A stretch of DNA of 21,741 nucleotides from a virus. The stretch is taken from the IMG/VR virus record IMGVR_UViG_3300030108_003499, positions 1 to 21,741 of that record. The stretch is one strand, 5' to 3'. The translations under genes and the position numbers were made by a program. Below are positions 1 through 21,741 of the stretch, piece by piece (within the stretch, counting starts at the first letter, position 1; each line of letters opens with the position of its first letter). Under the pieces are notes generated by a model that worked only from the letters and a program-made list of their open reading frames with translations, made no database searches and had not been told where the DNA came from.

Positions 1-3000
1 ATTGTTGATTCTGTTAATAATACGTATAAACTTGTTACAAAAGATGTAAATATTTTAAGAATCGGTGATAAAGTATCAACTCACGAAACTCTTGCTTCTG
101 GATCTCAATGGGGAGATAAAATTACATCAAGTTTTGATCCGATATCGAACAAAGAATATATTGTTACTGATGTGTTTGATGAAAATACTTGTTTAATTAC
201 AGGAACAGGAATTTCTGATCCAAGAAAAGTTACTAAAATTACTCGTCGAATTTCAAAAATAGATTCAGATCTACATCCAAACTTAAATAAATTTACAGCA
301 AATATACAAAACATATATCTTAAACCTGATATAGGAACTGTGAATGGTGTTCCATACTATGGCCCTTTTCATGAACATGAAGGTAAAAAAATGGTCGGAG
401 CTCAGCATGTTCCATTTCCTCATGATTTTATAATACCAAATCCTGATTCAAATAAAATTTTAGTTGCTTCTTCATCTCTACCATTCACAGGAGTATCAAA
501 ATTAAACCCCAAATTTCAAAAATATACTTTTAGTGGAACATATAATTTAAATGACGAAGAAATAAAAATTACAGATCAAGTTGATCATAATTATTTTACC
601 GGTGATGCCGTTTACTACACACCAGAAAAAACAAAAGTAACAAATACTTTACCTGATGGAACAGTAGTCGTTCAGGAATTTATATCAAGCCAAATTTTTG
701 ATGAGGGATTATATTTTGTAAAAAGAATTGATGCTAATACAGTAAAATTTGCAAAAAGTCAATCTGATATAAACAGTGACAATTTTGTAAAAGTTAAGAC
801 TCCAGATGGTGTTGATAATGTAACCATTACATCAAATGATATCGAAAAGTATGAATTTAACGGTAAATTAATTGAATCACAAAAACTGTTTAGAGAAATT
901 TCTACACCAGTCTCAGATGGACATATTCATAAAACAGTTCCCGGATACACTGGTATCTTAGTGAATGGAGTTGAGATTTTAAACTATAAATCAAAAAATG
1001 CAGTTTATCACGGAACACTTGATTCAGTTGATGTAGTAAGTTCAGGTGAAGATTATGATGTGATTAATCCACCTATTTTATCAATTACTGATAACGTAGG
1101 ATCTGGAGCCACAGGAACTTGTGCGGTAAAAGGTTCCTTTAAAGAGATAAGAGTTTTAGACTCTGGATTTGATTATATTGAAGAACCAGTTATAAAGATT
1201 ACTGGTGGTAACGGAAATAATGCAAATGCAGTTGCTAAATTAAATACAGTTCAACATGAAGTGATTTTTAATGGTGATGGTGTTGGATTAGGAACAATAT
1301 TTGATTCTAGTGGAGCTGGGATAGGAACTACAGTTCCAAATGGTAAACCAGACTCAATAGGGTTTAGTACCTATCATAAGTTTAGAACAGGTGAGAGAGT
1401 CATATACGACCCTCTGGGAGGAGTTCCTGTATTAGGTTTATCTACAGATGCAACTTACTATGTTTCTAGTCAGAGTGAGTATTCAATCAAATTGCACCCC
1501 ACATATGATGAGGCTGTAAGTGGAGTTGGCACTATATCTCTTACCAAGCCATTTGGTAATGGTGTTCAATCATTTAAATCACTTAACGGAAAAGCTATTC
1601 TTAGTTCTGTTGTATTAATTGATAAAGGGAGTGGTTACGAAAATAAACAAAAAACATGTAATTCGATTGGTATTAATACATCTTTAAACACAATAAACAT
1701 AAAGAACCATGACTTTAAAACTGGTGAAATTGTAAGATACTCATTTGATGGCACAACAATAAATGGATTATCAACTTCATTAGATTACTATGTAACTGTT
1801 GTTGATGAAAACTCATTTAAATTGTCAAACGTGGGTGTTGGAACAACTGTTAAAAGTTTTTATTTTGATACAAAACAATATAATGATTTAAGAAGTGTAG
1901 GATTAGGAACTCATAAATTCAACTATCCACCAATTAATGTTGAAGTGATTGGAAGAGTTGGTATATCATCAATCGCTGGAAAAACATATGATGCTATTGT
2001 TCAACCAATAGTTAGAGGTGAAATCACTTCAATAAACCTAACAAATAATGGTGTTGGATATGGAGCATCTGAGATACTAAACTTTAATCGAAAACCAGAA
2101 GTAGATTTATACTCAGGAAAAGACGCTGTAATCATACCAGTTGTAGCAAATGGAAGGATAGTTGATGTAAGTGTTAGTTATGGTGGAACTGATTATAACT
2201 CACCACCCGACTTAGTTGTTTTAGGAATTGGATCTGATGCTAAACTCACTCCAGAGTTAAATTCTTCAGGAAATATAGTTTCTGTAAATATTCAAAGTGG
2301 AGGCATTGGGTATGGTGTATCAACTACTTTTGTTAGAGTTGATGCAGCTGGGAAGGGAGTCAAAGTTGAACCTGTCATACAAAAATGGACTGTCAATGAA
2401 GTTTCAAAAAATCTACTTAATTTAAATGATGATGATGTATTCATTAGTAAACCGGTAAACTCTGATTATGGATTGCAATGCTCTTATGCTTACGCTCCTA
2501 GAAATTTAAGAAAGATATCATATGCTTCCGATGCTGATGGAAACATATTATATGGTAAGAAAGATTTAAATTTAGTGAATGGTGTTGAATCGGATAATGA
2601 TTCTCACTCTCCAATATTAGGATATGCGTATGATGGCAATCCAATATATGGCCCATTTGGATTTATTAATAAAACAGGTGGTAACATTGTTCAGTTATCA
2701 TCAGGTTATGTTGATGAGTCAACTAAAAAAGCAAATAGACCTCCTACAAGTGTATTTCCTCCTGAGTTTTTTGTCGAAGATTTTACGTTCAAACCATCAA
2801 ATGATGATACAGTTTTAGATCAAAATAATGGAAGATTTTGTGTAACACCTGAGTATCCAAATGGCACTTACGCATATTTTGCGACTTTTGATACAACTGC
2901 AGCTTCAGATGGTGTATTTAAAAATTTCAAAAAACCCAAATTCCCATACTTAATTGGAGAAAATTATAATTCAAAACCAAATAGATTTAATTATCTAAGA

Positions 3001-6000
3001 TCTTCTAGTCAAGAATATTATGACCTAGAAAAATCTAATCATGTGAGGAATACTTATCCTTATTCTTTAAACAAAGATTTTAGTGGTTATGATTACTTTT
3101 TACAATCAAATAATTATGTTACTCAAGATTCAGTAATTGATTTTGCTGAAAGAGGTAATGTCACAAGAGTTGGTATCTTATCAGAAGGTATTAATTATCA
3201 AATAAATGATACCGTAGTTTTTGATGACAGCGTTGAATCCTATTTTAAAGCAACTGCAAAAGTAAGTAAAGTTTCTGGCCCAGATATATCCGAAGTAAGT
3301 TATTCAACATTAACAAGATCAAATATTGAATTTTACCCCGCAGGAAGAGGTTTATTTGTAGGTATCGCATCAACAAGTCTGCAATTAAAAAATAACACTC
3401 TTGTTAATGTAGGTGGTTTATCAACGACTGATGCTAATCTAAAAGGAACTTACAATATTGGCATCAGTACTGTTAAATTAGAATTAACACAGGATATTGA
3501 GGCTCCAAGTTCAACAGGCGATGATTTTATATCATTCTTTCCAGTGCGAGGTGATTTAAAATCAATAAGGGAAAATGATGTATTTAAAGTAGGTGTTGGT
3601 ACTGAACAAATTAAAGTATTGAATGTAGATGAATTGTCAAAACGTATTAGAGTTTTGAGAAGACATAATAATACAACTGGAGTATCTCACACTGCGTCTG
3701 TAGTTTTAGAGGAATTACCTAGAAGTTTTTCATTTGACATTGGTGTATCAACAACTTATAGTGCAAGAAGAAATAGAGAGTATTATTTTAATCCAGCAGA
3801 AGCAGTGGGAATATCTACTCCAGCTGATGTTGCTGCAGTCGGTGTAGGAACAATAAGACAGATATCAAATCCCGGTGCTGGTAAGACACAAATATTCATA
3901 CCATCAAGAGCAATATACTTACCAGATCATGGACTTGAAACTGGTGATATCGTAACATATCAACTAAACGCGACTAATGAAACAGCAATTAATGTAAAAT
4001 TTCAACGTGCTGTCCCAGAGAACGACGAAACATTATTCCAAAATGCTCCATTATTTGTCGGTAAAATATCTAATGACTTTATTGGATTGTCCACTGTCAA
4101 AATTGGTATTGGTAGCACTGGTGGTTTTGTAGGTTTAGGTGCAACGATAAGTGATGTAGCAGGTCTTGGAACTCAAAGTTTAATATATTTTATGAATGTT
4201 GGTGTTGGAACTAACCATAGTTTAAAAACTCAATACCCAGTAATTACGGGTGAAATTAAAAGAAATCTAGTATCTGTTGTTGGAACTGCAACACATGGAC
4301 TTCTTGATAATGACACTGTAGTGATAGATGCGAGCTCTGGTTTATCCACGACTGTAACTGTAAAATACAATGTGGCAAATAGAAAAGCAGTTTTTAATCC
4401 ACTTTCATTCAATGATTCTGGTATAACATCTGCAACTTCATCTACAGGCATCCCAAACACTATCAATATAGCAGATCATGGATTAGTTACTGGTCAGAAA
4501 GTTATTCATACGTTCACTGGTTCTGAAAGTTCTTTAACTAATAACAAAGAATATTATGTTTATGTTATTGATAGTAATAAAATATCTTTAGTTGAAAATG
4601 GGTATGAAGTTACTAGATCAAAACCTGATTTTGTTAAAGTTGCAATAACAACTGCTGGAGTTTTATCACCAATAAATCCATCGGTGAAAATTTTTAGAGG
4701 ATCAACTGTCAACTTTGATTTATCAGACTCTTCCTTATCATATATTCAAAATACATCAAGTCTCCCAGCTTTTACATTTAAGTTATATAAAGATAATTCA
4801 TTTACAGAAGAGTATAATACAAATGGCACAAGTAACGTATTTGAAGTAACAAATACTGGAACTGTCGGAGTCACTGCAGATGCAAAATTAACTTTGAAAG
4901 TAAATAAGAATACTCCAAGTCTTTTATACTATAAATTAAATGCAATTGAAACAAATGAAAATAAGTTAGAAAATAAACAGATTGTCGTAGATAACGAAGT
5001 TGATTTAAATAATCAATTAATAGTTAAGGATAGTAAATTTAGCGGAACTTTTAAAATTACCTCAACAGGTTCTACTACATTTACATATGATTTAGATTCA
5101 ATACCAGAAGCGTCTTCCTTTACATCTTCGGACTCAACACTTAAATATTCAACCATCTCTACCACAGCTTATGGTGGTGTGAAAGAAGTCTCTGTAATTG
5201 ATGGTGGAGGTGGATATTTAGATGTTCCCGGTATCACCACTGTCACTTCAAATGTGGGTACAGGTGTTGTTCTGGAATCATTCAGTTCAAATATAGGAAA
5301 GGTCACAAAAACAACTTTAGATAATATTGGATTTGATTATCCATCCGACTTTACCTTAGAACCAGATTTAATATTCCCACAAGTTTTAAGAATAACACCA
5401 TTAACAGGATTCAAATCTATAGGTATAACATCATTAGGCAAAGGATATATTCAGAATCCTAGTTTGGTTGTTTTAGATGGTGTAACTAAAAAACAAATCA
5501 CTGATGTAGACTTAAGATATAGACCAGATGAATTGTTTGTTGAAATATTAAAAAACAGCGAATCCATGAACGCTGCCACTCCCACCATCATTCCTACAGG
5601 TAACTCAAATGGAATAAGGGTATCAAATTTAGTTTATGATAATGATGGCCAACACGTTACTGCAACAATTAAAAATGCGTTTAGTGGTGTTGTTGGATAT
5701 TCGGGAACTTATATTGATCCTTTCCCATTTACAGTTGGTGATAAAGTTTTAGTAGAAAATGCAAGTGTTGGTGTTGGTTCAACTGCATCCGGATTTAATT
5801 CCTCTGGTTATGATTATGCAAGATTTGAAATTACTGAGGTAACTCCTAATTTTGGTGGCATTGGAACTGTAAAATATGATATGTCTAATTATTTGTCCCA
5901 AAATGTTGAATATCCCGGTGTTTTTGATACTGTAAATTCAGTGGCCACACTTATACCAGATAAATGGTTCCCACAATTTGATATTGAATTACAACCTAAC

Positions 6001-9000
6001 AAATTTAGAGTTGGTGATGAGGTTGAAAGTTTTGATAGCACTGGCACACAAATAAAAGGAACAGTATTTGATTGGAATAACTCAAGTAAGTATCTTACAG
6101 TTGAAAGTAATAGAGAATTTGAAATTGATAAATTAATTCAACAAGTAAGATTTAGAGGAGAGAGAATAGGTGGAAAAACTTACGCATCACCCACTGGTGC
6201 AAAAGGTTTAATAAAAGAAATAATAAAATTTGAAGGTAAATACAACTTAGATTATTTTTCTACAGTTAAAGATGGGTTTGAGTATAATACTGGATTCCTA
6301 AATGATGAGTTGCAAAGAGTACACGATAATAATTATTATCATGCTTTCTCATATGCGATTAAATCGAAAGTTCAAATAAAAGAATGGGAGGATATAGTTA
6401 GTTCTCTTAATCACACAGCTGGTTTTAAAAAATTTAGTGATTTGCAAGTTGAATCAGATAAATTATCAACTTCATCCAGCAGATTATCTTCAATTGATCC
6501 TACAAAAAGTGTTGTAACAACTCTTGTAGATTTAATAAGTGTTCAAAGTTTAAATACCGTATATGATTTTGATTTAGCAACTGAAAATTATTTGCAGGGT
6601 GTTGATAAACCATTTTCAGACGAAATTAATTTTCACACAAGATTAATTACTGATTACTCTGAGTCTGTTTCAAACCGTGTTGTAAAAATTGATGATATAA
6701 GCAACATCTTTAACAATAATGCAAGATCGACACAATATGCTGATGTCTTCCGTAATGCGTTAACTGATGGAAGAACTCAGATGTTCTTTGCACTGGTATC
6801 TGATAGATTATTTACCGGTGAGAGACAAATTACCATTGTTAATACACTTCATGATACTGGTAGAGGTCAAACCATGCTTAACCAGTATGGTGACATGGAA
6901 ACAGTTCTTGATTTGGGTAATTTTGATTATGTCATTGAAGGCAATGAATCGGTTCTCAGATATTATCCAAATAAATTTAAACTTAACAATTATAATGTTG
7001 TTTTATGGTCATATCAGCTAGATACACAAAAATTAGGAATATCAACTGACACTGTATCTTGTGGCAGTACAACTATTCCCGGAGCACCCACAAATCCAAC
7101 CACAGGACTAAACGGATCATTAATAAGTATTGCGACAACAGCTGTTTCAATTGCTGGAGGAGCAGCAGGAACAGTATTTACACTTGGTGGTATTGGCACT
7201 AATATATCTGGTCATAGATCAGCAAAAGTGTTGGTAAGTGTTGAAGCTAAAGGTGGAACTTTAAATGGTAGTGTTGAATATGATCAAGTAAGTTTAATAC
7301 ATGATGGAACAAATGTTGGATTCCAAGAGTATGGGCAACTTACAATTCATTCTGTGGATGCGTATTCATCAACAAGTAATATTGGAACTTACTTCCCATT
7401 CATGGATGGAAATGATTTAGTCCTTTCATATACACCTGATGTCGGAATGACCACTGCTCATATTAGTGCTTTAGCGATTGGTATTGCAACAGAGGGATAT
7501 ATTGGAATAGGATCATATGATTTCTCCTACGCAGAGATGTCTGCTCAAACAACAGGTATATCCTCAAGTTCAACTCCCATACCAGTAGGTATCGCAAGTT
7601 ATAGTAATGAGTATGATGCTGCTTACGTGATTGTTCAGATAGCAGATGTTTTAAATGGTAGTTATGAATTAACTGAAGTAGTGATGATTGATGACTACGA
7701 CGGATCTGATCCAGAAAATGTCATGCTCACAGAATTTGGAAATGTAAAAGTTGGAACAGCTTTTGCAGGTTTGGGAACAATAAGTGCGAGAAGAACTGGC
7801 ACAGATGATGATATAACTGAATTGACTTTTGTTCCAAATGCAGGTATTGGCGTTTCTATAACAACATTTATGAACGCATTGAGACCAGAGGAAAATACAT
7901 CTTTATTACCCTCAGAGGCTACAAGAGAAGTTGGTGGAGAGGCGATAAAAGATCTCACAAATGCTTCACTTGAAAGTGGATTTGCGATTTACGAAGGTAC
8001 TGAGGTGTCAATCAAGAGAAAATTTGCACTTGAGAATGATGGTAATCCTATTTTCAAAAAACCATATGACGGTTCAAGTTCTGAGATTATTGATTTAACA
8101 AATAATATTATTACTATTCCAAATCATTTCTTTACCACAGGTCAGAAAGTAAATTATTCAGCCGGTGCTGGAACATCAATTGGTATCAGCACTGCTCCAT
8201 TTAGCATGCCTGAGTCAGTGTTTATTATTAAAAAAGGTGAGGATAAAGTTCAAGTTGCTCTAACTGCTGAAAATGCATTAAAGCAGATTGCACTTCCAAT
8301 TGGATTATCCACTGTAGGTATTGGAACATCTCATACATTCACTGCCATAGACGCTAATCAAAAAGTTTTAGTTGCTATTGATAACGCAATACAATCTCCG
8401 ATAGCTGGAACATCTGTCACAACAACCATAGACAGATCATATACGATAGGTGATGACGTAATACATTTTTCCGGTATTACATCTTTCTTTGGAGCAGATT
8501 ATATACAAGTTGGATCTGGCACAACTTCAGAAATAATGAAAATTATTTCAGTTGGTATTGGAACAACTAATGCAATCAAAGTAAGAAGAGGATGGCTTGG
8601 AACAACTATAAGAGCAAGAGAGGGTGGTGCTTTAGTTGAAAAGATTAGAGGTAATTATAATATAGTTGAAAACGAAATTAATTTCATAGAGGCACCTCCG
8701 GGTAAAAATCCAATTAGTTCAACTACAAATCCACCTAGTGAAAGAGATTTTGTTGGCATAACAACATCATCTAGTTTCCAAGGAAGAGTATTTACTCGAA
8801 CAGGGGTAACAGGTGGAACTGAGGAAACTTACACTGATAATTATTTGTTTGATGATCTAAGTCAAGGTTTTAATGGATTGACAAAAGATTTTGATTTAAC
8901 TCATAGTGGTGGAACTGCAATCACTGGTGTTGCTACAAACAACGCATTAATATTAATTAACGGTGTATTGCAAGCTCCCGGTTCAAACGGAAACTTTACT

Positions 9001-11847: not shown

Positions 11848-11850
11848 ATA
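11843..11850 (+). promoter_or_regulatory. Possible T4-type late promoter upstream of gp8-like gene
   Basis: CATAAATA overlaps the stop codon of the giant gene and lies about 20 bases before the gp8-like ATG at 11870. It fits the T4 late -10 element TATAAATA and the NATAAATA form described for marine T4-like phages. A second, weaker CTAAATA (11862-11868) touches the start codon. The sequence is A+T-rich, so such octamers also arise by chance; position in one of the few intergenic gaps is the main support. Confidence 0.35.
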
Positions 11851-11869
11851 ACTAAAAAATTCTAAATAA

Positions 11870-13426
11870 ATGTCTGCCATAATAACTGACCAGATAAGAA
11901 TATTAAATGCGAAGAATTTTGTAGCTGGAGTATCTTCATCATCTAATTCTTATTATACTTTTGTCGGTTTGACTGAGCCGACAAAAATTCAAGCAACATG
12001 GAATAATAATCCCCCTGCGCCCATTGATAGTTTCAATGATCAGAATGATTATTATGACACAATGATTGCTTTAAAAAAAGTAACAGCAAGTGACGTAAAA
12101 CAAGTCGTAAGAAAAAATAGTTGGACTTCAGGGACAACATTTGATTATTACAGACCAGATTATAGTATTAACAATCCACCAAAAAATGGACAAGGTACAA
12201 CTTTATATAATGCGACTTATTATGTGGTTAACAGTGATTTTAGAGTTTACATTTGTTTAGAAAATGGTACTAATCCTGAGAACCCTGATGGTAAACCATC
12301 CCTTGATGAACCAACGTTTACGGATTTAGAACCAAAAGCTGCAGGATCAAGTGGAGATGGATATATCTGGAAATATCTTTACACGATAAAACCATCTGAG
12401 TTGGTTAAATTTGACTCTACTGAATATATGCCAGTTCCATCTGATTGGTCAACTGGTAGTGATAATTCTTCTGTCAGAGACAACGCGGTTGATGGTGGAA
12501 TTAAAGTAGTTGTTATTCAAAATAGAGGTGTAGGATTAGGAACTGCAAATAGAACATACACAAGAGTCCCAATAAAAGGGGATGGAAGTGGAGCAGAGTG
12601 TACTGTAACAGTTAACGCTGATCAACAAGTCGGGTCTGTTGTGGTTACAAATCAGGGGTCTGGATACACATTTGGAACTGTTGATATCGTAGCTGGTGGT
12701 CTACCAAGACCAGATTCTTATCCTCAACTTGATGTTATTATTCCACCACAAGGTGGACATGGTAAGGACATTTATAAAGAACTAGGAGCATCTAATGCTT
12801 TAGTTTATTCACGTATTGAAAATGATCCAGAAAATCCTGACTTTATTACTGGAAATGAAATATCAAGGATAGGTATTATTGAAAATCCACAAGCATTTGG
12901 ATCTTCATCTTTACTTACCTTAGATAAAGCTAGTGCAGCATATGCTTTAAGACTAACTGGCACTGGTTATAGTTCAGCAACTTTTACACCAGACTCAATC
13001 ATTACACAAACAATTGGAACTGGTGTGACCGCAATTGGTAAGGTTCTTGGATATGATCAAGTTACTGGTGTTTTAAAATATTGGCAAGACCGTACTATGG
13101 CAGGTTTCACAACGGTTGGATTAGGAACCACTGCGCCCATACATGGATTTAATGCTGATAGATTTACTGCTGATATTTCTGATGGAGGTAATTTCAGCAT
13201 TGTTCCTAATAATGGTTCTGACACATTAGCGATTCAAACATCATTTAGCGGTCTATCTACCTCAATAAATAATAAGACATATTACCTTGGTCAAACATTT
13301 ACAAATGGTGTGTCAAACCCAGAGGTTAAAAAATACTCTGGTAATATAATATATGTTGATCATCGACCAGCCATCACCCGTTCTTCTAATCAAAAAGAAG
13401 ATATTAAAGTTATATTGCAATTCTAA
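11870..13426 (+). CDS. 8: Baseplate wedge subunit gp8-like
   Basis: Wedge component of the T4-type baseplate, expected to contact gp6, gp7 and gp10 in the assembled wedge. Of 518 residues, three parts align by eye with T4 gp8: an N-terminal strand then YYTFVGLTEPT (T4: IFITFGRSEPW); a central GDGYIWKYLYTIKP...TEYMPVP (T4: GDGYVWEYLFEIPP...NEYIVVP); and the C-terminus SGNIIYVDHRPAITR...KEDIKVILQF (T4: SGEMIYMENRPPIIM...TEEINILFTF). T4 gp8 has 334 residues; the extra length lies in two insertions, one after TEYMPVP carrying a GxGY repeat (about 209-277) and one before SGNIIYV. Start ATG is supported by the N-terminal alignment. No Shine-Dalgarno-like purine run precedes it. The DUF4815-type gene follows after 6 bases, suggesting cotranscription. 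Confidence 0.9.
   Translation: MSAIITDQIRILNAKNFVAGVSSSSNSYYTFVGLTEPTKIQATWNNNPPAPIDSFNDQNDYYDTMIALKKVTASDVKQVVRKNSWTSGTTFDYYRPDYSINNPPKNGQGTTLYNATYYVVNSDFRVYICLENGTNPENPDGKPSLDEPTFTDLEPKAAGSSGDGYIWKYLYTIKPSELVKFDSTEYMPVPSDWSTGSDNSSVRDNAVDGGIKVVVIQNRGVGLGTANRTYTRVPIKGDGSGAECTVTVNADQQVGSVVVTNQGSGYTFGTVDIVAGGLPRPDSYPQLDVIIPPQGGHGKDIYKELGASNALVYSRIENDPENPDFITGNEISRIGIIENPQAFGSSSLLTLDKASAAYALRLTGTGYSSATFTPDSIITQTIGTGVTAIGKVLGYDQVTGVLKYWQDRTMAGFTTVGLGTTAPIHGFNADRFTADISDGGNFSIVPNNGSDTLAIQTSFSGLSTSINNKTYYLGQTFTNGVSNPEVKKYSGNIIYVDHRPAITRSSNQKEDIKVILQF
12494..12700 (+). repeat. GxGY beta-repeat insertion inside gp8-like gene
   Basis: Residues about 209-277 of the gp8-like protein read IKVVVIQNRGVGLGTANR, then AECTVTVNADQQ, then VGSVVVTNQGSGYTFGTVDI. 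This is the same module type as in the neighbouring giant genes, including the V-G-L-G-T turn. It has no counterpart at this place in T4 gp8 as I recall that sequence. Confidence 0.6.
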
Positions 13427-13432
13427 TCACCC

Positions 13433-16400
13433 ATGGCACAAACAACCAATCTAAATGTATCGCCATATTTTGACGATTTTAATGCAGATGACAATTATTA
13501 TAAGGTATTGTTTAAACCCGGTCTTCCGGTTCAAGCAAGAGAACTAACAGGCTTACAATCAATATTACAAAATCAAATTTCAAAATTTGGTCAACATGTC
13601 TTCAAAGAGGGTGCAAAAGTCATACCCGGAAACACAACATACTTCACAGATTATTTTTGTGTAGAATTAAATAATGAATATCTTGGTATAACTGTAGAGT
13701 CTTATATTAATCAGTTATTAAATCGAAAAATAGTTGGATTAACATCTGGTGTTAGCGCGACTATAGTTAAAATTTTAAGTTCATCAGAATCAGAGAGAGA
13801 TAATCTTACAATTTATATAAAATATGACTCATCAGGTGTGGCAAATGATAATTCAAAATTTATTGACGGAGAATTATTTGCTGCTGATGTTGATATAGTC
13901 TCAGGCCCTGAAAATAGTTCATTTATACCAACTGGTGAAGCATTTGCATCTGCTATTTCTACAAACGCAACCTCAACTGCTGCTTCATTTTCCGTATCCG
14001 AGGGAGTTTATTTTGTTAGAGGCACTTTCGTTAATGTCCCAACACAAACACTTTTACTAAGTCAATATTCAAACACTCCAACAGGTAGAATCGGATTAAG
14101 AATTTTAGAAGAAACAATAAATTCTGATGAGGATGAGAGTTTAACAGATAATTCAAAAGGTTTCAACAACTTCGCTGCTCCCGGTGCTGATCGTCTAAAA
14201 ATTACCTGCAATTTATTTTTTAAGGGAATAGATGATTTAAATGATGATGATTTTGTTGAACTTGCATCTGTAAGAGATGGTGAATTAAGAAATAGACTTA
14301 CATCTTCGGATTATAATTTACTTGATGATGAGTTAGCTCGAAGAACTTTTGCAGAATCTGGAGATTATACAACAAGACCTTTTTCAGTGAGTGTTAGAGA
14401 ATCATTAAATGATCAACTTGGAAATAACGGTGTCTATAGTGAAGGTCAGTCAACAGAGGGTGGTGCAATTGCAAATGAAAATTTAGCACTATTTCAAGTA
14501 TCATCAGGTAAGGCATTTGTAAGGGGTTATGAAATTGAAAAAACAAACTCAAGTTATCTGGATGTTTTAAAACCAAGAACCTCTAAAACATTAAAAGGCA
14601 AAAGAATAAATTATAATACTGGTGCGACTCTTAGATTGAATAATATAAAAGGATCACCAGAAGTTGGTATTGGAAATACGTTTGTTGTTAGTTTAAGGGA
14701 TCAAAGACACATTGGATTACCAGTTAATTCTGGTATTGCAACTGGAAAGGAAATAGGTCTTGCTAGAGTTTATGATTTTGCATTAGAGTCTGGATCATAC
14801 AATGCGACAAATGGAAATATTAATGAGTATGATGTTTCTTTGTATGATGTTCAAACATTCACTGAGGTTACTTTAAATACGAATCACACACTTTCAACTC
14901 CAGTTTTTGTTGAAGGTAAATTTAGTGGTGCTACAGGATTTTTAAGATCATCAGTATCTAATAGTACATCATTAACTTTGTATGAAACACAAGGTGATAT
15001 CATACCTAATGAACCACTTATTTTCAATGGTATAGAAAATGGAAGAGTTGCATTAGCGATAACATCTTTTGGTGTATCCGACGTAAAATCACTTTTTGCT
15101 GGCCCCACATTAGGATTAGATGGAAATGTTGGAGCTGCACAAAGTTTTGTAAGTGATGTAGTGCAGAGAGATCAATTTATATTTGGAAATGCAGTTATAA
15201 CAGAGGTTAATGGATCAACTGGTTTGAGCACAGTTACAAGTTCAAATTCTCAATTCCCCGGTAAACTTAAAGTAGGGAATTTATTGAGTTTTGGTGGTTT
15301 AGATAGTGATTTAAAATCTATAGTACGAGTTACTGAAGTAGGAACAAATAGTATTTCTGTGACAGGAGTTGCAACTGTTACTGGTGTTAATGAAGGTCAA
15401 TTACCAAAACAAGGAACAACTGGTGTGACTACATCATCCACTGGTGGTAATTTCTTTAATGCATCTGATCTAACATTGATAACAACTCCAATTGAAAAAT
15501 CTGATGATAATAGTTTGTTTACACAGTTACCAAAAGATAATATATCAGATGTTGACATATCAAACGCAACTTTAAATATAAGAAAAACATTTGATGTGAC
15601 CATTGATGCATCTAATAATCAAATGAGTGCAGCTGTTTCTGCTGGAACTAATGAGACATTTTTACCTTTTGATGAAGAAAGATATTCATTAGTAAGAAAA
15701 TACGATGGAGTAACTGAAGTTTTAACATCAGATAAATTTACATTTACTAATGGAAACGGATCGTTACAAATTAAAAATGTTGGATCTGATCTATCAGCTG
15801 ATCAAGGAGCAACTTTAGTTGCCACACTCGCAAAAACAAATCCAAAAGCCAAAGTAAAAAGAAAACAGAGAGTAAACACCCTTAATATTACAAAATCAAG
15901 AATTGAAGGATCAGGGACAGGTGGAACCACTCTTAATGATGGATTGGAGTTTGGTAGTTTTCCTTTTGGAACTCGTGTACAAGACAAAAAAATATCATTA
16001 AACACTCCAGATGTTCTAAAAGTATTGGGTATATTTGAATCGACCAATACGAGTGATGCTTCTGCACCAAAAATTACTTTATCATCCATAAACAGTGCTG
16101 CTGGTAAAACAACAGATATGATAATTGGTGAAAAAGTTCGTGGAAATACAACTGGTGCAATAGGTATATACGCTGAAAGAATAAGTGATACACAAATATC
16201 CTTTGTTCCTTTAAATGAAACTGATTTGAAAGAAAATGAAACTGTTACATTCTTAGAATCAAATATTCAAGCTGTTGTTAATACGATTGATGTTCCTAGT
16301 AAAAATGTCACATTTAACTACAAATTTAACAGTGGACAAAATCTCTCTTTTTATGATTATGGATTTATACAAAGAGACAAAGATGCTGATCCCCCAAGTA

Positions 16401-19400
16401 AAAGATTAAAAGTATACTTTACAAATGCGTATTTTGAATCATCAGATGATGGTGATGTTACAATTAAAAATTCATACGATAGTTTTGATTACAATGATGA
16501 TATTCAAACAGTTGATGGAGTAAGAAATACTGATGTTATTGACATAAGACCAAGAGTTTCAAATTACTCTGTATCTGAAAGCACTAGATCACCACTTGAA
16601 TTTTTAGGAAGAACATTTAACTCATCAGGTAGTTCTGCTTCAAATGTTCTTGCTTCAGATGAGTCTATGCTTGTAGATTTTTCATTCTTCTTAGGGAGAG
16701 TAGATAAAATTTACTTAACAAAATATGGTTCATTAATTGTGTCTCAAGGAACACCGGGGGAAGATCCAGATAAACCAGTTCCGATTGACGATTCATTAGA
16801 AATAGCAGAGATAAAACTACCTGCATACTTATATGATGTATCCGATGCTAAATTATCCTTCTTAAAGCATAAAAGATATCGAATGAAAGATATCCGCAAA
16901 CTAGAAGAAAGAATTAAAAATTTAGAATACTATACGTCACTATCATTATTAGAGACAACAACTGCAAATTTATTTGTTACTGATGAAAATGGATTAAATA
17001 AATTTAAATCTGGATTCTTTGTTGATAATTTTACGTCATTCACTCCACAAGAGGAATCAGTAAAGATTAAAAACAGTATTGATAGTTTCCAAAAAGAAGT
17101 TAGACCATCTCATTATACAAATGCCATAGATTTGCAGTTAGGGCCTGTTGAAGGACAAAATAATATATTTAATGGTGCAGATCCAGAGGGAACTAATATT
17201 AGAAAAACTGGTAATATAATCAGTCTAGATTATGATGAAACAGTATATTTAAGTCAACCATTTGGAACTAGATCTGAAAGTGTTACTCCATTTATACTTA
17301 ATTTCTGGACTGGATCATTAGATTTAACTCCAGCATCTGATACTTGGGTTGATACCGTTAGATTAGATCCAAAAATTATTCCAACTGAGGGAAATTTTTC
17401 AAGTGTAGTTGCCGAGGCTGAGCAGAGAGGATTCGATCCTCAAACTGGTTTAACAGATACTGTTTGGGGTGGTTGGCAAACTGTTTGGACAGGAGTAGAG
17501 CAAACTTCTCACATTCACACTAGAAACAGGACTGTCATGGGAAGAAGGCGCGGTAGACGAGCTCTTTTCCTTGAAACACGAGAACAGGGTACAATAACAA
17601 GAACAGATGTAGGAACTTCTACCAGACAGGGAACAAGGGAATTAATTACAGAAACGTTTGATCAAGAATCTCTTGGAGATAGAACAATAAGTAAAGAAGC
17701 GATCACTATAATGAGATCGAGAAACATTACGTTTGAAGGTAAAGGTTTCAAACCACAATCAAAATTGTTTGCGTTTTTCGATGGTGTCAATGTAACTAAA
17801 CATTGCTTCCCCAAACTTATTGAAATATCAATGAAGTCTGGTGTATTTCAAGTTGGAGAAACTGTAACAGGGACAATTCAAACAAACTTCACAGGAAATA
17901 GAACAAAAACCGTGAAGTTTAGAGTTGCAAATTCAAATCATAAAGAAGGGCCATTTAATGCACCAACAAGGGTATATGTTAAGAATCCATATACAACCAG
18001 CACAGCAGTTTCCGCGTTAGAAACATACTCAGGAACTCCCGGATTTGTTCAGTTAACTGGAGCATCTGCATCCATAATACCATCATCATATTCATCAACA
18101 TCGACAACTTTAAACGTAGATTTAGTTTCATTAGCGGAGCAACCTCAAGGAGATTTCTTTGGTAACGTTGAAAGTGGAATGACCTTGAAAGGAGGGACAT
18201 CGGGTGCTGAAGCTGAAGTAGCAGATGTAAGATTGATCTCCGATTATGCTTCCTCACTACAAGGAAGTTTCTTCATACCAGATCCTAATGTTGACGCGAA
18301 TCCTAAATTTGAAACTGGTAAAAAGGAATTTGTTCTTATAGATGACGATCAAAACAGATCATCTGAGGCCACAACTTTTGCTACTGATACTTTTGAATCG
18401 TCTGGTATAATCGAGACTGTCCAAGAAAATATATTATCAGTTAGAAATGCAAAAGTTGAAACAGTAAGTGTCTCTGAATCAAGAGAGGCAAGAAGATCAG
18501 AGACAACTCGTGTTGATAGAACCATATCAAGAAGATTTCTTAGAATGGCAAGAAGATGCGATCCACTTGCTCAGTCTTTCTTTGTAAATGAAAATAGTGG
18601 TGTATTTTTAACAAGTTGTGAAGTTTATTTTGAAACTGTAGATGATGGAGGTATCCCTGTTCAACTTGACATAAGAACAATGAAATTGGGAACACCAACT
18701 CAAGAAGTTCTCCCATTTTCTCAAATTAATTTAGATCCTGATCAAATATCAACTTCTACGAACGGAACTGTTGCAACTAAATTTACTTTTAAATCACCAG
18801 TTTATCTGTCACCGGGAACTGAATATTGTATATGTATGCTATCCTCATCAGCTAAATATAGAGTCTTTATATCAAGGGTTGGTGAGAATGATTTAGTGAC
18901 TGATGAGTTCGTTTCAAATCAACCTACTTTGGGGTCATTATTCAAGTCACAAAACGCATCAACATGGGAACCAAGTCAATGGGAAGATTTAAAGTTTGTT
19001 TTGAATAGAGCAGAATTTGTTTCTCAAGGAACTATTGAGATCTATAACCCCATATTATCTGAGGGTAACAAACAAATTCCAACATTGATGCCTGATTCTA
19101 TAAATCCAATATCTAAAAAAATTAGAATTGGTATATCATCAGCATTTAGTGGTAAAGCAAATGATGTTCACCCAAATATTGGTAACACAATTTCTCAAGA
19201 TAACTCAGAGGCAACTGGTAACTTAGTTGCAACTGCTGGTATCGCAACTGGAACATTGACTGTATCTAGAGTAGGTTTAGGATATACCCCCGCGAATGGA
19301 ACTGCTGGTGGTAGTGGACAAACTGTTACAGGTGTGGCTCTTACAACAGTGACAGGTAGTGGTCGAGATGCAGAGGCAACAGTTGTTTATAATGAGGGAT

Positions 19401-21052
19401 CTGTCGTTTCAGCAACAATCACTGGTGGTGGTGCAGGTTATTCAGTGGGTGATGTTTTAGGAATATCAACAGATTTGGGTATTAACGCAAGACTAACAGT
19501 TGCATCTATTGGTAGTACAAGTGAATTAGTTCTTGATAATGTTCAAGGTGAATTTGCAGTGGGTTCTGGAAACTTACTGTTCGCAGGTGCTGTGGCAGGT
19601 GTTACAAGTGCAATAACTGGTGCTGGTGGTGATACAGGTGCTTCAATTCCGACAAGTGGTATAACAACGGTGAGTGATGGTCTTCATATCCTTGTTAATC
19701 ACAAAAATCATGGTATGCATCATATTAATGATAGAGTTACAATCTCTGGTGTTGAAGGTGATGTTACACCACAAAAACTTACTGTTTCATATGCTAACAA
19801 TTCAACTGCTGCAATAACAGTCGATAGTGTTGGAATATTTACATCTTTTGAAAATGTTGCTGTGGCTGCAACGAATCCCGGTTACATTAAAATAAGAGAT
19901 GAAATAATCAAGTATACAGGAACTTCTGGTAATACATTAACTGGGATTACAAGACAACAAGATTCAACTCTTGCAAAAAATTATATTGTCGGAGATTTAG
20001 TTACTAAGTATGAATTAAGTGGTGTTTCACTACGTAGAATTAATTTAACTCACAATTTTAGTGATGTCACAGATTCAAATCCATTTACACTTGACTCATA
20101 TAAGGTAAAACTTGATATGGGTGCTAATGGTATTGGAAGGAGCACAACGACAGCAGCTAGTTTCCCACCACGTCTATTTTTAGATCAATCTAAATCTACA
20201 GGTGGTGTAAATATCAAGGCAACACAAAATATGCCTTTCCAATTAATTACACCAATAGTTCAGAATGTTACAGTTCCGGGAACAAATTTAAGTGCAACAA
20301 TCAAAACTGTAAGTGGAACAAGTATTAATGATGGATCAGGATCTGGTGCCGATATACCATTTACAGTTCAAGAAGTTGAAGATGTGGCACTAAATGAAAT
20401 AAATTACCTTAACTCGCCAAGAATAATCGCATCAAGAGTTAACGAAACCAATAACTCCAGTATCACAGTTCTCCCCGGTGATAGATCATTTAACATGAGT
20501 TTGAATTTAAATTCAGACAATACTTTATTATCACCCGTTATTGATACGGAAAGAATAACTGCAGTCTTGACATCAAACCGTATTGATAAACTTGTTTCAA
20601 ACTTCGCTACTGATAGTCGTGTGGATACATTAGATGATGATCCTTCATCCACTCAGTATATTTCCAAAGAAAATATTCTAGAAACATCAGCAACATCAAT
20701 TAAAATAATTGTTGATGCTCATGTGAATGATTATAGCGATGTGAGAGCATTTTACGCTATCTCTCAAACACCCGGAACTGATCCAATATTTGTTCCATTC
20801 CCCGGTTTTGAAAATTTAAATGAGAGGGGTCAAATTATTTCTGTTGAAAATAGTAATGGAAAACCTGATGTATTAGTTCCATCATCTCAAATAAGAGGAT
20901 TTCATCCAGATGATCTTCAATATAAAGAGTTGACATTTACAGCAAATGATCTTCAAGCGTTTAAATCGTTTAGAATTAAATTTGTCATGACATCAACTAA
21001 CCAGGCTTACGTTCCTAGAATCGCAAGTCTTAAAGTTATAGCTCTTGCGTAA
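13433..21052 (+). CDS. DUF4815-type giant virion structural protein (baseplate/tail-fibre region)
   Basis: A 2539-residue protein. The N-terminus (SPYFDDFNADDNYYKVLF, then KPGLPVQARELTGLQSILQN, residues about 10-48) is the hallmark of the DUF4815 family found in marine T4-like phages. Further landmarks: a charged coiled coil, MKDIRKLEERIKNLEYYTSL (about 1149-1168); an Arg-rich stretch GRRRGRR (about 1370); MRSRNITFEGKGFKP then LFAFFDGVNVT (about 1426-1465); DPLAQSFFV followed by GVFLTSCEVYF, LGTPTQEVLPFS and GSLFKSQNASTWEPSQWEDL (about 1709-1870); GxGY repeats (about 1940-2015); and a beta C-terminus. No enzymatic motif is visible. The start is fixed by the N-terminal family match and lies 6 bases after the gp8 stop; there is no clear ribosome-binding site, so translational coupling is likely. 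Exact position in the virion is not established by sequence. Confidence 0.85.
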   Translation: MAQTTNLNVSPYFDDFNADDNYYKVLFKPGLPVQARELTGLQSILQNQISKFGQHVFKEGAKVIPGNTTYFTDYFCVELNNEYLGITVESYINQLLNRKIVGLTSGVSATIVKILSSSESERDNLTIYIKYDSSGVANDNSKFIDGELFAADVDIVSGPENSSFIPTGEAFASAISTNATSTAASFSVSEGVYFVRGTFVNVPTQTLLLSQYSNTPTGRIGLRILEETINSDEDESLTDNSKGFNNFAAPGADRLKITCNLFFKGIDDLNDDDFVELASVRDGELRNRLTSSDYNLLDDELARRTFAESGDYTTRPFSVSVRESLNDQLGNNGVYSEGQSTEGGAIANENLALFQVSSGKAFVRGYEIEKTNSSYLDVLKPRTSKTLKGKRINYNTGATLRLNNIKGSPEVGIGNTFVVSLRDQRHIGLPVNSGIATGKEIGLARVYDFALESGSYNATNGNINEYDVSLYDVQTFTEVTLNTNHTLSTPVFVEGKFSGATGFLRSSVSNSTSLTLYETQGDIIPNEPLIFNGIENGRVALAITSFGVSDVKSLFAGPTLGLDGNVGAAQSFVSDVVQRDQFIFGNAVITEVNGSTGLSTVTSSNSQFPGKLKVGNLLSFGGLDSDLKSIVRVTEVGTNSISVTGVATVTGVNEGQLPKQGTTGVTTSSTGGNFFNASDLTLITTPIEKSDDNSLFTQLPKDNISDVDISNATLNIRKTFDVTIDASNNQMSAAVSAGTNETFLPFDEERYSLVRKYDGVTEVLTSDKFTFTNGNGSLQIKNVGSDLSADQGATLVATLAKTNPKAKVKRKQRVNTLNITKSRIEGSGTGGTTLNDGLEFGSFPFGTRVQDKKISLNTPDVLKVLGIFESTNTSDASAPKITLSSINSAAGKTTDMIIGEKVRGNTTGAIGIYAERISDTQISFVPLNETDLKENETVTFLESNIQAVVNTIDVPSKNVTFNYKFNSGQNLSFYDYGFIQRDKDADPPSKRLKVYFTNAYFESSDDGDVTIKNSYDSFDYNDDIQTVDGVRNTDVIDIRPRVSNYSVSESTRSPLEFLGRTFNSSGSSASNVLASDESMLVDFSFFLGRVDKIYLTKYGSLIVSQGTPGEDPDKPVPIDDSLEIAEIKLPAYLYDVSDAKLSFLKHKRYRMKDIRKLEERIKNLEYYTSLSLLETTTANLFVTDENGLNKFKSGFFVDNFTSFTPQEESVKIKNSIDSFQKEVRPSHYTNAIDLQLGPVEGQNNIFNGADPEGTNIRKTGNIISLDYDETVYLSQPFGTRSESVTPFILNFWTGSLDLTPASDTWVDTVRLDPKIIPTEGNFSSVVAEAEQRGFDPQTGLTDTVWGGWQTVWTGVEQTSHIHTRNRTVMGRRRGRRALFLETREQGTITRTDVGTSTRQGTRELITETFDQESLGDRTISKEAITIMRSRNITFEGKGFKPQSKLFAFFDGVNVTKHCFPKLIEISMKSGVFQVGETVTGTIQTNFTGNRTKTVKFRVANSNHKEGPFNAPTRVYVKNPYTTSTAVSALETYSGTPGFVQLTGASASIIPSSYSSTSTTLNVDLVSLAEQPQGDFFGNVESGMTLKGGTSGAEAEVADVRLISDYASSLQGSFFIPDPNVDANPKFETGKKEFVLIDDDQNRSSEATTFATDTFESSGIIETVQENILSVRNAKVETVSVSESREARRSETTRVDRTISRRFLRMARRCDPLAQSFFVNENSGVFLTSCEVYFETVDDGGIPVQLDIRTMKLGTPTQEVLPFSQINLDPDQISTSTNGTVATKFTFKSPVYLSPGTEYCICMLSSSAKYRVFISRVGENDLVTDEFVSNQPTLGSLFKSQNASTWEPSQWEDLKFVLNRAEFVSQGTIEIYNPILSEGNKQIPTLMPDSINPISKKIRIGISSAFSGKANDVHPNIGNTISQDNSEATGNLVATAGIATGTLTVSRVGLGYTPANGTAGGSGQTVTGVALTTVTGSGRDAEATVVYNEGSVVSATITGGGAGYSVGDVLGISTDLGINARLTVASIGSTSELVLDNVQGEFAVGSGNLLFAGAVAGVTSAITGAGGDTGASIPTSGITTVSDGLHILVNHKNHGMHHINDRVTISGVEGDVTPQKLTVSYANNSTAAITVDSVGIFTSFENVAVAATNPGYIKIRDEIIKYTGTSGNTLTGITRQQDSTLAKNYIVGDLVTKYELSGVSLRRINLTHNFSDVTDSNPFTLDSYKVKLDMGANGIGRSTTTAASFPPRLFLDQSKSTGGVNIKATQNMPFQLITPIVQNVTVPGTNLSATIKTVSGTSINDGSGSGADIPFTVQEVEDVALNEINYLNSPRIIASRVNETNNSSITVLPGDRSFNMSLNLNSDNTLLSPVIDTERITAVLTSNRIDKLVSNFATDSRVDTLDDDPSSTQYISKENILETSATSIKIIVDAHVNDYSDVRAFYAISQTPGTDPIFVPFPGFENLNERGQIISVENSNGKPDVLVPSSQIRGFHPDDLQYKELTFTANDLQAFKSFRIKFVMTSTNQAYVPRIASLKVIALA
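16870..16960 (+). other. Coiled-coil segment in DUF4815-type protein
   Basis: Residues about 1146-1175 read KRYRMKDIRKLEERIKNLEY, then YTSLSLLE. The heptad spacing of I, L, I, L and the alternating K/R and E indicate a short coiled coil, the clearest helix in an otherwise beta-rich protein. From memory this string is one of the most conserved parts of the family, which fits a trimerisation or docking role (inference). Confidence 0.6.
19215..19640 (+). repeat. GxGY beta-repeat block inserted in DUF4815-type gene
   Basis: Residues about 1928-2069 contain GTLTVSRVGLGYTPANG, VVSATITGGGAGYSVGDVLG and a following Gly/Ala/Thr-rich strand set. The block sits between the family-typical DPLAQSF...EDL domain and a C-terminal beta region, and matches the repeats of the upstream giant protein and of gp8. 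Confidence 0.55.
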
Positions 21053-21276
21053 TGGAATTTATTAAAGTAAAAGATAATGAACATTTGATAAAAAATACTA
21101 AATCAAATTTCATTGTAAATACAAACAAATCTGAATATGATGAATACATCGCTCGTCGTAAACTTAAACAGAGTGAAAAACAAAAAGTTGAAAATATTGA
21201 AAGAGATATATCAACTCTAAGGAATGAAATCACTGAAATCAAAGACATGTTAAGGAGTCTGGTAAATGGCAACTAA
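21052..21276 (+). CDS. Small coiled-coil protein of unknown function, 74 aa
   Basis: The ATG at 21052 shares its A with the TAA of the preceding giant gene (TAATG), a classic translational-coupling arrangement that fixes the start; there is no separate Shine-Dalgarno. The N-terminal half (FIKVKDNEHLIKN, then VVNT-like IVNTNKSEYDEY) is polar. The C-terminal half (about 38-70) is strongly charged, with heptad-spaced V, I, I, L, I, I, L, L (KVENIERDISTLRNEITEIK), so it should form a coiled coil and probably oligomerises. Small proteins of this pattern sit among structural genes in marine T4-like phages, but I know no assigned function. A minus-strand frame over the same bases is a shadow. Confidence 0.8.
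   Translation: MEFIKVKDNEHLIKNTKSNFIVNTNKSEYDEYIARRKLKQSEKQKVENIERDISTLRNEITEIKDMLRSLVNGN
21252..21257 (+). promoter_or_regulatory. Strong ribosome-binding site for the 141-aa gene
   Basis: AAGGAG lies 8 bases before the ATG at 21266, inside the end of the 74-aa gene. It is the only textbook Shine-Dalgarno among the starts in this window and decides the start of the downstream gene. Confidence 0.7.
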
Positions 21277-21691
21277 AAAAATTACTTTTGATCCAGAGGC
21301 AGGAGTTGCATATCCATGCGATTTAATCATGAATGTCGGTGCTGATTTTAGTGCCACTTTTAATGTTGTTGATACATCAAACACTGGATTTAATTTTTCA
21401 ACCACAAATTCAGTTGGATTGAATACTGTAAGTGGTTGGACGGGATCATCTCAGATGACAAAAAGCACAGCGATTGGATCAACTGCCTTTCCAGTGGCCA
21501 CGTTTAGTGTAGGTATAGACACAACTCCATCAAGTGGATATGGTTTGACTATATCATTGGGATCAACTGCCACAAGAAGTATAAACGCAGGTAGATATGT
21601 GTATGATGTTTTAGTGGGATCAGGTATGACGGTGTATCGAATTGTAGACGGAAATATACTTGTTAGAGGTGGTGTATCTTCTGCACCCTAA
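21266..21691 (+). CDS. Small virion structural protein, probable beta-sandwich, 141 aa
   Basis: Starts 11 bases before the end of the 74-aa gene, behind a strong ribosome-binding site. The sequence has an N-terminal ITFDPEAG segment, then DLIMNVGADFSATFNV, GWTGSSQMTKS, GLTISLGSTATRSINAGRYV and YDVLVGSGMTVYRIVDGNIL with the end VRGGVS. The pattern D-L-x-[IV]-x-x-G-x-[DT]-[FW]...A-x-I-R...T-x-x-[LI]-x-x-G-x-Y-x-Y-D-[IV] resembles the small beta-sandwich proteins of phage tails (LtfC/p132/Gp6-like or baseplate-upper-protein type). That family link is by recall and tentative. It is likely a decoration or fibre-associated structural protein. Confidence 0.75.
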   Translation: MATKKITFDPEAGVAYPCDLIMNVGADFSATFNVVDTSNTGFNFSTTNSVGLNTVSGWTGSSQMTKSTAIGSTAFPVATFSVGIDTTPSSGYGLTISLGSTATRSINAGRYVYDVLVGSGMTVYRIVDGNILVRGGVSSAP

Positions 21692-21694
21692 ATA
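21688..21694 (+). promoter_or_regulatory. Possible late-promoter-like CTAAATA before the last gene
   Basis: CTAAATA overlaps the stop codon of the 141-aa gene, 20 bases before the next ATG. The same heptamer sits just before the gp8-like start (11862-11868). It resembles the T4-type late element, but A+T-rich background makes chance occurrence plausible. Confidence 0.25.
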
Positions 21695-21699
21695 TTGAC

Positions 21700-21704
21700 A
21701 GAGG
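21700..21704 (+). promoter_or_regulatory. Ribosome-binding site of the gene running off the right edge
   Basis: AGAGG lies 10 bases upstream of the ATG at 21715 in the 23-base gap, an acceptable Shine-Dalgarno that supports that start. Confidence 0.5.
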
Positions 21705-21714
21705 TATAGTATAA

Positions 21715-21741
21715 ATGGCTCAACCATCAAGTAGATCAACA
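21715..21741 (+). CDS. 5' end of a further gene (first nine codons, MAQPSSRST)
   Basis: An ATG with a plausible ribosome-binding site opens a frame that reads MAQPSSRST and continues past the window. From memory, a conserved structural protein of marine T4-like phages begins with a similar M-x-x-P-S-[ST]-R string, so it is probably one more virion gene, but nine codons cannot establish this. Confidence 0.6.

Follow-up and report, generated by a model that had tools for sequence, protein, structure and literature searches.

Avoidance of CCWGG and GGWCC in a small clade of T4-like cyanophages and its probable origin in host restriction

Avoidance of restriction sites by phages is known for orthodox Type II sites, and Rusinov et al. 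(2018, PMC6286503) report that about a tenth of viral genomes show complete or almost complete elimination of sites; the main text of that paper does not contain the terms CCWGG, cyano, Synechococcus or Prochlorococcus. Here we describe such avoidance in the window, a stretch of 21,741 bases with 34.5% GC that spans positions 1 to 21,741 of IMG/VR record IMGVR_UViG_3300030108_003499, a single virus record without additional contigs. As in the earlier work, short palindromes of the Type II kind have been nearly eliminated from a double-stranded DNA phage, above all CCWGG and GGWCC (W, A or T; S, C or G). The present case differs in that the avoided set switches between close relatives, and in that Pro-Gly and Gly-Pro are where the nested sites CCWGG/CCGG and GGWCC/GGCC come together.

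The five open frames of the window contain 24 Pro-Gly pairs. Their proline codon is CCC in 19, CCG in 4, CCT in 1 and CCA in none, whereas proline before any other residue is encoded by 229 CCW and 28 CCS codons (Fisher p=1.3e-18). Since proline codons followed by G but not GG keep CCW (70 versus 7 CCS), the switch to CCS requires the following GG. The whole window holds two CCWGG, at 10738 and 21001, and 23 CCSGG, every one of them a Pro-Gly pair. Compared with codon-preserving shuffles, which keep the amino acid, the first two bases of the codon and the next base, the single in-frame CCWGG contrasts with 15.2 ± 2.0 expected, and none of 1000 shuffles was that low; out of frame, the window alone gives 1 against about 1.9 expected, a comparison that has no power at this size. 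GGWCC is absent, with 6.0 expected in frame and 1.5 out of frame, and glycine before proline is GGS in all 8 cases, compared with 598 GGW and 50 GGS elsewhere (p=2e-9).

An initial annotation of this DNA had described 23 of the 24 Pro-Gly pairs as CCC or CCG, proline elsewhere as mainly CCA or CCT, and just two CCWGG, CCTGG at 10738-10742 and CCAGG at 21001-21005. Our recount of the five frames reproduces the first figure exactly and agrees with the others; the coordinates given there for example pairs are correct to within a few bases, and both the shuffled null and the confinement of CCS to the GG context bear it out. Its claim that the depletion is specific to the palindrome CCWGG is right as to the palindrome but incomplete, since the total absence of GGWCC was overlooked. 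The frames and sites are as follows.

1..11847, + strand: gp7-like baseplate wedge initiator, left end open at the contig edge; annotated at the corresponding position in SynMITS9220M01 and S-SM2
11870..13426, + strand: gp8 baseplate wedge, 518 aa, by protein match; the clade marker
13433..21052, + strand: VrlC-like structural protein, 2539 aa, with a counterpart in cyanophages
21052..21276, + strand: small conserved phage protein, by position; same place in SynMITS9220M01, G002 and G025
21266..21691, + strand: small conserved phage protein, by position; same place in SynMITS9220M01, G002 and G025
10738..10742, no strand: residual CCTGG, the sole in-frame CCWGG, within Gly-Pro-Gly (GGG-CCT-GGT), by count
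21001..21005, no strand: residual CCAGG, out of frame, by count
940..20805, no strand: 23 CCSGG, by count, at 940, 3871, 5227, 5914, 7078, 8698, 8977, 10057, 10405, 10468, 10489, 13517, 13625, 14180, 15257, 16754, 18038, 18812, 19877, 20276, 20474, 20771 and 20801
361..17952, no strand: 8 GGSCC, by count, at 361, 2650, 3277, 10735, 13904, 15101, 17141 and 17948

The five consecutive frames, all on the + strand, match gp7, gp8, a VrlC-like structural protein and two small proteins of T4-like cyanophages, and the window is, to judge from these matches, a contig of a T4-like cyanophage. The gp7-like gene carries 11 of the 23 CCSGG pairs together with the only in-frame CCTGG, and the VrlC-like gene the remaining 12. 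No record close to the window was found in the phage collection at the DNA level; the best gp8 match there is Synechococcus phage SynMITS9220M01 (70%). A tRNA search of the window returned none.

The phylogenetic extent of the avoidance was followed with gp8, whose best 80 of 599 IMG/VR loci and two named phages gave 82 relatives. CCWGG avoidance is clear in three of them (L002, L003 and L054) and is seen in the short L004 as well; the rest are not comparable, with L041, L063 and L037 intermediate (11/8, 4/4 and 3/3 CCW/CCS at Pro-Gly). The window and these four form one clade with support of 100/97 in a gp8 tree of 83 rows. Their sister L005, whose gp8 is 79% identical, uses CCW at 29 of 29 Pro-Gly pairs. 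When the window is aligned with the whole contig of L005 (G004), 17 of 18 Pro-Gly sites pair CCS in the window with CCW in the sister, compared with 19 of 180 other aligned prolines (p=9e-14). Therefore, the spelling of Pro-Gly pairs has changed in one lineage, through synonymous substitutions of the base at the centre of the site. The initial annotation had called for a repeat in related phages, and this is its outcome: avoidance in one gp8 clade and the opposite spelling in the sister.

Counts pooled over the clade (window, L002, L004, G002 and G025; 90 kb, L002 being 97% identical to the window in gp8 and hence not independent) yield 5 CCWGG in frame versus 61 expected and 1 out of frame versus 7.6, and no GGWCC versus 28 in frame and 5.6 out of frame; within-gene shuffles agree. 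Seventeen other cyanophage contigs are undepleted in CCWGG (336/339 in frame and 53/57 out of frame; seen/expected, as in all such pairs below). The two avoider groups use the Pro-Gly dipeptide itself a little less often (odds 0.81 and 0.83, versus 0.98-1.15).

The depletion acts on DNA, independently of the reading frame. Among the 16 SSWSS words, CCWGG and GGWCC alone are strongly depleted in the clade, the next lowest being CGWCG out of frame (8/14.9) and GCWGC (1/2.0). The clade is also low in GTAC (78/196), GAATTC (4/23), ACTAGT (0/17) and TTCGAA (0/7.5), and CCGG is not low (110/70). The sites are thus rare against the null, the loss is specific to these two palindromes as against words of similar composition, and it is independent of frame when pooled over the clade. 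These counts come from contigs that are fragments and from frames of a simple caller, and the shuffles, although they preserve codon usage and the following base, do not capture all effects of context, several non-palindromic words also departing from expectation. The avoided set is led by CCWGG and GGWCC, with GTAC, GAATTC and ACTAGT next, so that the single-site reading of the initial annotation stands for CCWGG as one among several avoided palindromes.

A second avoider lineage emerged from a screen with gp23 and gp43 of SynMITS9220M01, in which 160 IMG/VR loci were examined and only those with at least 2.5 CCWGG expected were judged, short loci thus remaining unjudged. Further avoiders of usable length are L131, part of the 66 kb contig G031, and L144; a third locus passing the screen, L122 (1/4), was dropped as too short at 6.3 kb. 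G031 and L144 together have CCWGG at 6/42 in frame and 0/13.6 out of frame, and GGWCC at 0/19 and 0/8.9; the codon phase of L144 near gp23 may be partly wrong, the caller having favoured an overlapping frame, although the share affected is small. Because the gp8 of G031 is only 43% identical to that of the window, and phages at 60-70% are not avoiders, the trait either arose separately or was lost often.

G031 also carries an ndhI-like gene that is matched in 20 phage records, 12 at 80% or more and 8 below 60%. The close matches are the Prochlorococcus phages P-TIM40 and P-TIM68, with two records each, and eight AG-345 records; in cellular genomes the gene matches AT-rich host-like genomes at 83-84%, G103 at 81% and three larger Synechococcus at 79-80%. 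On account of these matches, G031 probably infects Prochlorococcus. The window clade probably infects Prochlorococcus or close kin. Since plate AG-345 belongs to an extracellular sort gate, according to PMC6122165, the AG-345 viruses say nothing about hosts.

We propose, at a probability of roughly 0.74, that this small clade of T4-like cyanophages has been purged of Type II restriction-type sites by restriction in past or present hosts. Hosts would cut entering phage DNA at CCWGG and GGWCC, variants with fewer of these sites would survive, and the cheapest loss at Pro-Gly and Gly-Pro would be a change from W to S at the third base of the codon. The initial annotation had suggested selection by the host against an EcoRII/Dcm-type site; selection against CCWGG in DNA is well supported. 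The counts establish the depletion, how specific it is, where it falls in the tree and that it came about synonymously, and cleaving host enzymes are the agent that we infer.

Candidate enzymes were sought in genomes of the family of Synechococcus WH7803, which we take to be Cyanobiaceae; those of about 31% GC and 1.6-1.7 Mb are termed Prochlorococcus-like, a label derived from these properties. Two of them, G212 and G281, encode a C5 methylase (PF00145) 50% identical to Escherichia coli Dcm over 315 aa, a stretch that takes in the variable region; as in the E. coli Dcm-Vsr pair (NC_000913), it is accompanied by a Vsr gene, here immediately upstream (40% over 122 aa). In L383 the methylase lies at 9917-10810 and contains both the C5 methylase domain and the Dcm-like variable region. 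Unlike the E. coli pair, these genes stand beside others resembling a defence system: they are followed by matches to MzaB, MzaC, MzaD and MzaE (E=4e-73, 8e-110, 5.5e-11 and 3e-78) and by a phage-type integrase. The HATPase, Z1, DUF4420 and AIPR genes occur in the same order as in the Mza system of PADLOC, from which the locus differs in that the Vsr and Dcm-like genes precede them and in that no MzaA was matched among the five L383 proteins scanned, other neighbours lying outside the scan; mzaA is a sigma factor according to PMC9523054. The locus was found at L383:9233-18228 and L384:8514-17611. By its kinship to Dcm, the methylase is a candidate cognate of CCWGG with a putative specificity.

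For GGWCC, the genome G103 has a match to RE_SinI (E=3e-40) beside a C5 methylase, as in the SinI restriction-modification system, whose specificity we take to be GGWCC. G103 is itself low in this word (3/29 out of frame, no other SSWSS word being as low there), implying that the depletion measure detects a real system. The sampled DNA of G103 has 42% GC. The pair is likewise a candidate cognate by kinship. As a separate observation, a conserved C5 methylase of roughly 690 aa occurs in L352, L365, L367-L370, L372 and L377-L380, mostly beside two co-directional genes and, in six genomes, at about 0.36-0.39 Mb of contig 1.

Pressure on CCWGG also exists in host-like lineages, since two Prochlorococcus-like genomes, G313 and G288 (stretches L408-L410 and L463-L482), are short of the word. 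Out of frame, G313 has it at 1/13.2 in one sample and 16/39.9 in another, and G288 at 32/49.3, in each case the lowest of the 16 SSWSS words and reached by 0 of 100 shuffles; the first 20 kb stretch of G288 alone gives 4/3.5, a separate pooled sample of both genomes 5/16.5, and the shortage is smaller than in the phages.

Several observations weigh against restriction by hosts. Any C5 methylase was found in just 35 of 300 host-family genomes, and among 400 the Dcm-like gene occurs in two and the SinI-type pair in one, so that the search for a cognate methyltransferase, which the initial annotation had advised, yields rare candidates whose specificity rests on kinship. EcoRII-C gave one weak match in the same 400, on a 3 kb contig (G418), and apart from it no Type II enzyme appeared beside the N4/N6 methylases of AT-rich host-family genomes (ten proteins at six loci), the other proteins scanned giving N6_N4_Mtase, one ResIII or no match. 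A look at putative hosts is likewise divided: G313 and G288 are short of CCWGG, with no CCWGG enzyme identified in either, but the bearers of the Dcm-like gene, G212 and G281, keep it out of frame (16/15.4 and 14/16.9). In addition, Prochlorococcus is reported to have typically 0 to 1 restriction-modification systems per genome (PMC8262939), L004 taken alone is weak (2 CCWGG versus 4.9), and the groups were chosen after the counts had been seen.

An alternative that we regard as improbable, though not negligible, is that a nuclease of the phage itself, shredding host DNA, or of competing phages cuts CCWGG and GGWCC, protection being achieved by site loss rather than methylation. It would account for nearly complete avoidance despite the rarity of matching host systems; the sites of G212, G281 and G162 (12/17.6 out of frame) are near expectation, as those of a target should be, and no C5 methylase was found in 32 phage records, a set that leaves G031 outside. 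However, no such nuclease was recognised in the 66 kb of G031 through SynMITS9220M01 matches or by eye among unassigned proteins, an absence that is weak given incomplete contigs and no library scan. Several unrelated specificities would each require an enzyme, and the shortage of CCWGG in G313 and G288 themselves fits host restriction better.

A codon-pair or translational effect, in which CCA-GG and CCU-GG are poorly translated and CCC or CCG is therefore used at Pro-Gly, was the alternative named in the initial annotation. The bulk of the signal is indeed in frame, but the effect is rejected as very unlikely because out-of-frame CCWGG has been lost too (1/7.6 in the window clade, 0/13.6 in G031 and L144) and because the sister phage encodes the same proteins with the opposite spelling. 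CCW is used at nearly all such pairs in L005 and in the named cyanophages that were fetched, the mirror word GGWCC behaves alike, and CCW before G-not-G is normal.

Mutational decay, by which C-methylated sites would be lost through deamination, seems hardly credible as well. Dcm-type methylases do occur in related hosts, and two decay products are slightly raised: CTWGG in group B (73/65, a count reached by 22 of 300 shuffles) and in-frame CCWAG in group A (71/64.5, reached by 1 of 300). Nevertheless, the product totals are near expectation (group A CTWGG 65/71 and CCWAG 92/91; group B CCWAG 87/87.5), 56 of 61 expected in-frame sites having gone without a matching excess, and the central base changes from W to C or G, a substitution that deaminated methyl-C cannot produce. 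A compositional or lineage-wide bias common to phage and host, to which the partial shortage in G313 and G288 might point, is equally implausible, as the nulls preserve codon usage and the following base, 17 other cyanophage contigs and G212 and G281 are undepleted (G162 standing at 12/17.6), and the in-frame loss in G313 is small (104/112) against 5/61 in the phage clade.

Beyond restriction by hosts as such, the geometry of the sites raises a further question. Every Pro-Gly pair (CCN-GGN) contains either CCWGG or CCGG, just as every Gly-Pro pair contains either GGWCC or GGCC. It is possible, though we hold it only tentatively, that phages restricted at both nested sites cannot escape both synonymously and must sacrifice one, that the choice reads out the stronger pressure, and that a shift in regime altered the spelling of almost every Pro-Gly pair in a lineage. 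CCGG outside CCSGG is absent from P-SSM2 (0/9.4) and from six AG-345 virus particles (0/57). Out-of-frame CCWGG is low in P-SSM2 (0/4.8), the six particles (8/53), the CCGG-avoiding clade (1/18) and the sister L005 (0/6.9), as is out-of-frame GGWCC in P-SSM2 (1/4.9) and the particles (7/38), while in-frame CCWGG is intact (37/35 and 217/207). In the Prochlorococcus-type phages, every Pro-Gly in the stretches counted is CCWGG. G031 and L144 avoid CCGG off Pro-Gly (9/28), yet their Pro-Gly pairs are mostly CCSGG (48 seen, 12 expected). The window clade and G031 may therefore have chosen the opposite horn from the Prochlorococcus-type phages.

Some cases speak against a nested conflict. G103 has GGWCC at 3/29 out of frame and 19/27 in frame without avoiding GGCC (108/107), and G313 has CCWGG at 16/40 and 104/112 without avoiding CCGG (23/27 in frame, 46/38 out of frame), so that no such conflict is needed for the frames to differ. 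In AG-345-P14 and E08, CCGG is absent (0/11.7), yet there is no clear out-of-frame loss of CCWGG (17/25 pooled, 17/20.5 within genes).

Other words and genes of these phages were noted in passing. The P-SSM2 and AG-345 stretches (L345-L349, L456-L460) have almost no CCGG, and most are low in GCGC, TTCGAA and AGCT. Phage contigs L165 and L166 have one AGCT each (57 and 41 expected) and no CCGG (13 and 10 expected). Prochlorococcus phage P-TIM68, which encodes a D12-class adenine methylase, is nearly free of CpG, with an odds ratio of 0.04 in L350 (KM359505, 68000-90000; 22 CG in 22 kb) and 0.14 in L461 (120000-140000; 78 in 20 kb); the ratio is 0.24-0.65 in the other cyanomyovirus stretches measured. 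In SynMITS9220M01, a 'putative cytoplasmic protein' between two clamp-loader genes (L084:25369-26427) matches the DruA family of Druantia (E=8e-10).

Restriction-site avoidance is already known, and a clade-level switch of the avoided set was not found in the literature covered; nor did we find there any account of cyanophages avoiding CCWGG or GGWCC, or of a conflict at Pro-Gly, although subscription journals were mostly outside this coverage and novelty is not proven. Although Prochlorococcus is regarded as almost devoid of restriction-modification, its phages show strong signs of several Type II specificities, and these signs are specific to clades. Should host enzymes be their source, the pangenome of the host contains or once contained more restriction than is visible in the sampled genomes, and the spelling of a phage would be a readout of the systems that its lineage met. 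The either/or at Pro-Gly would then compare two selective pressures directly within one genome.

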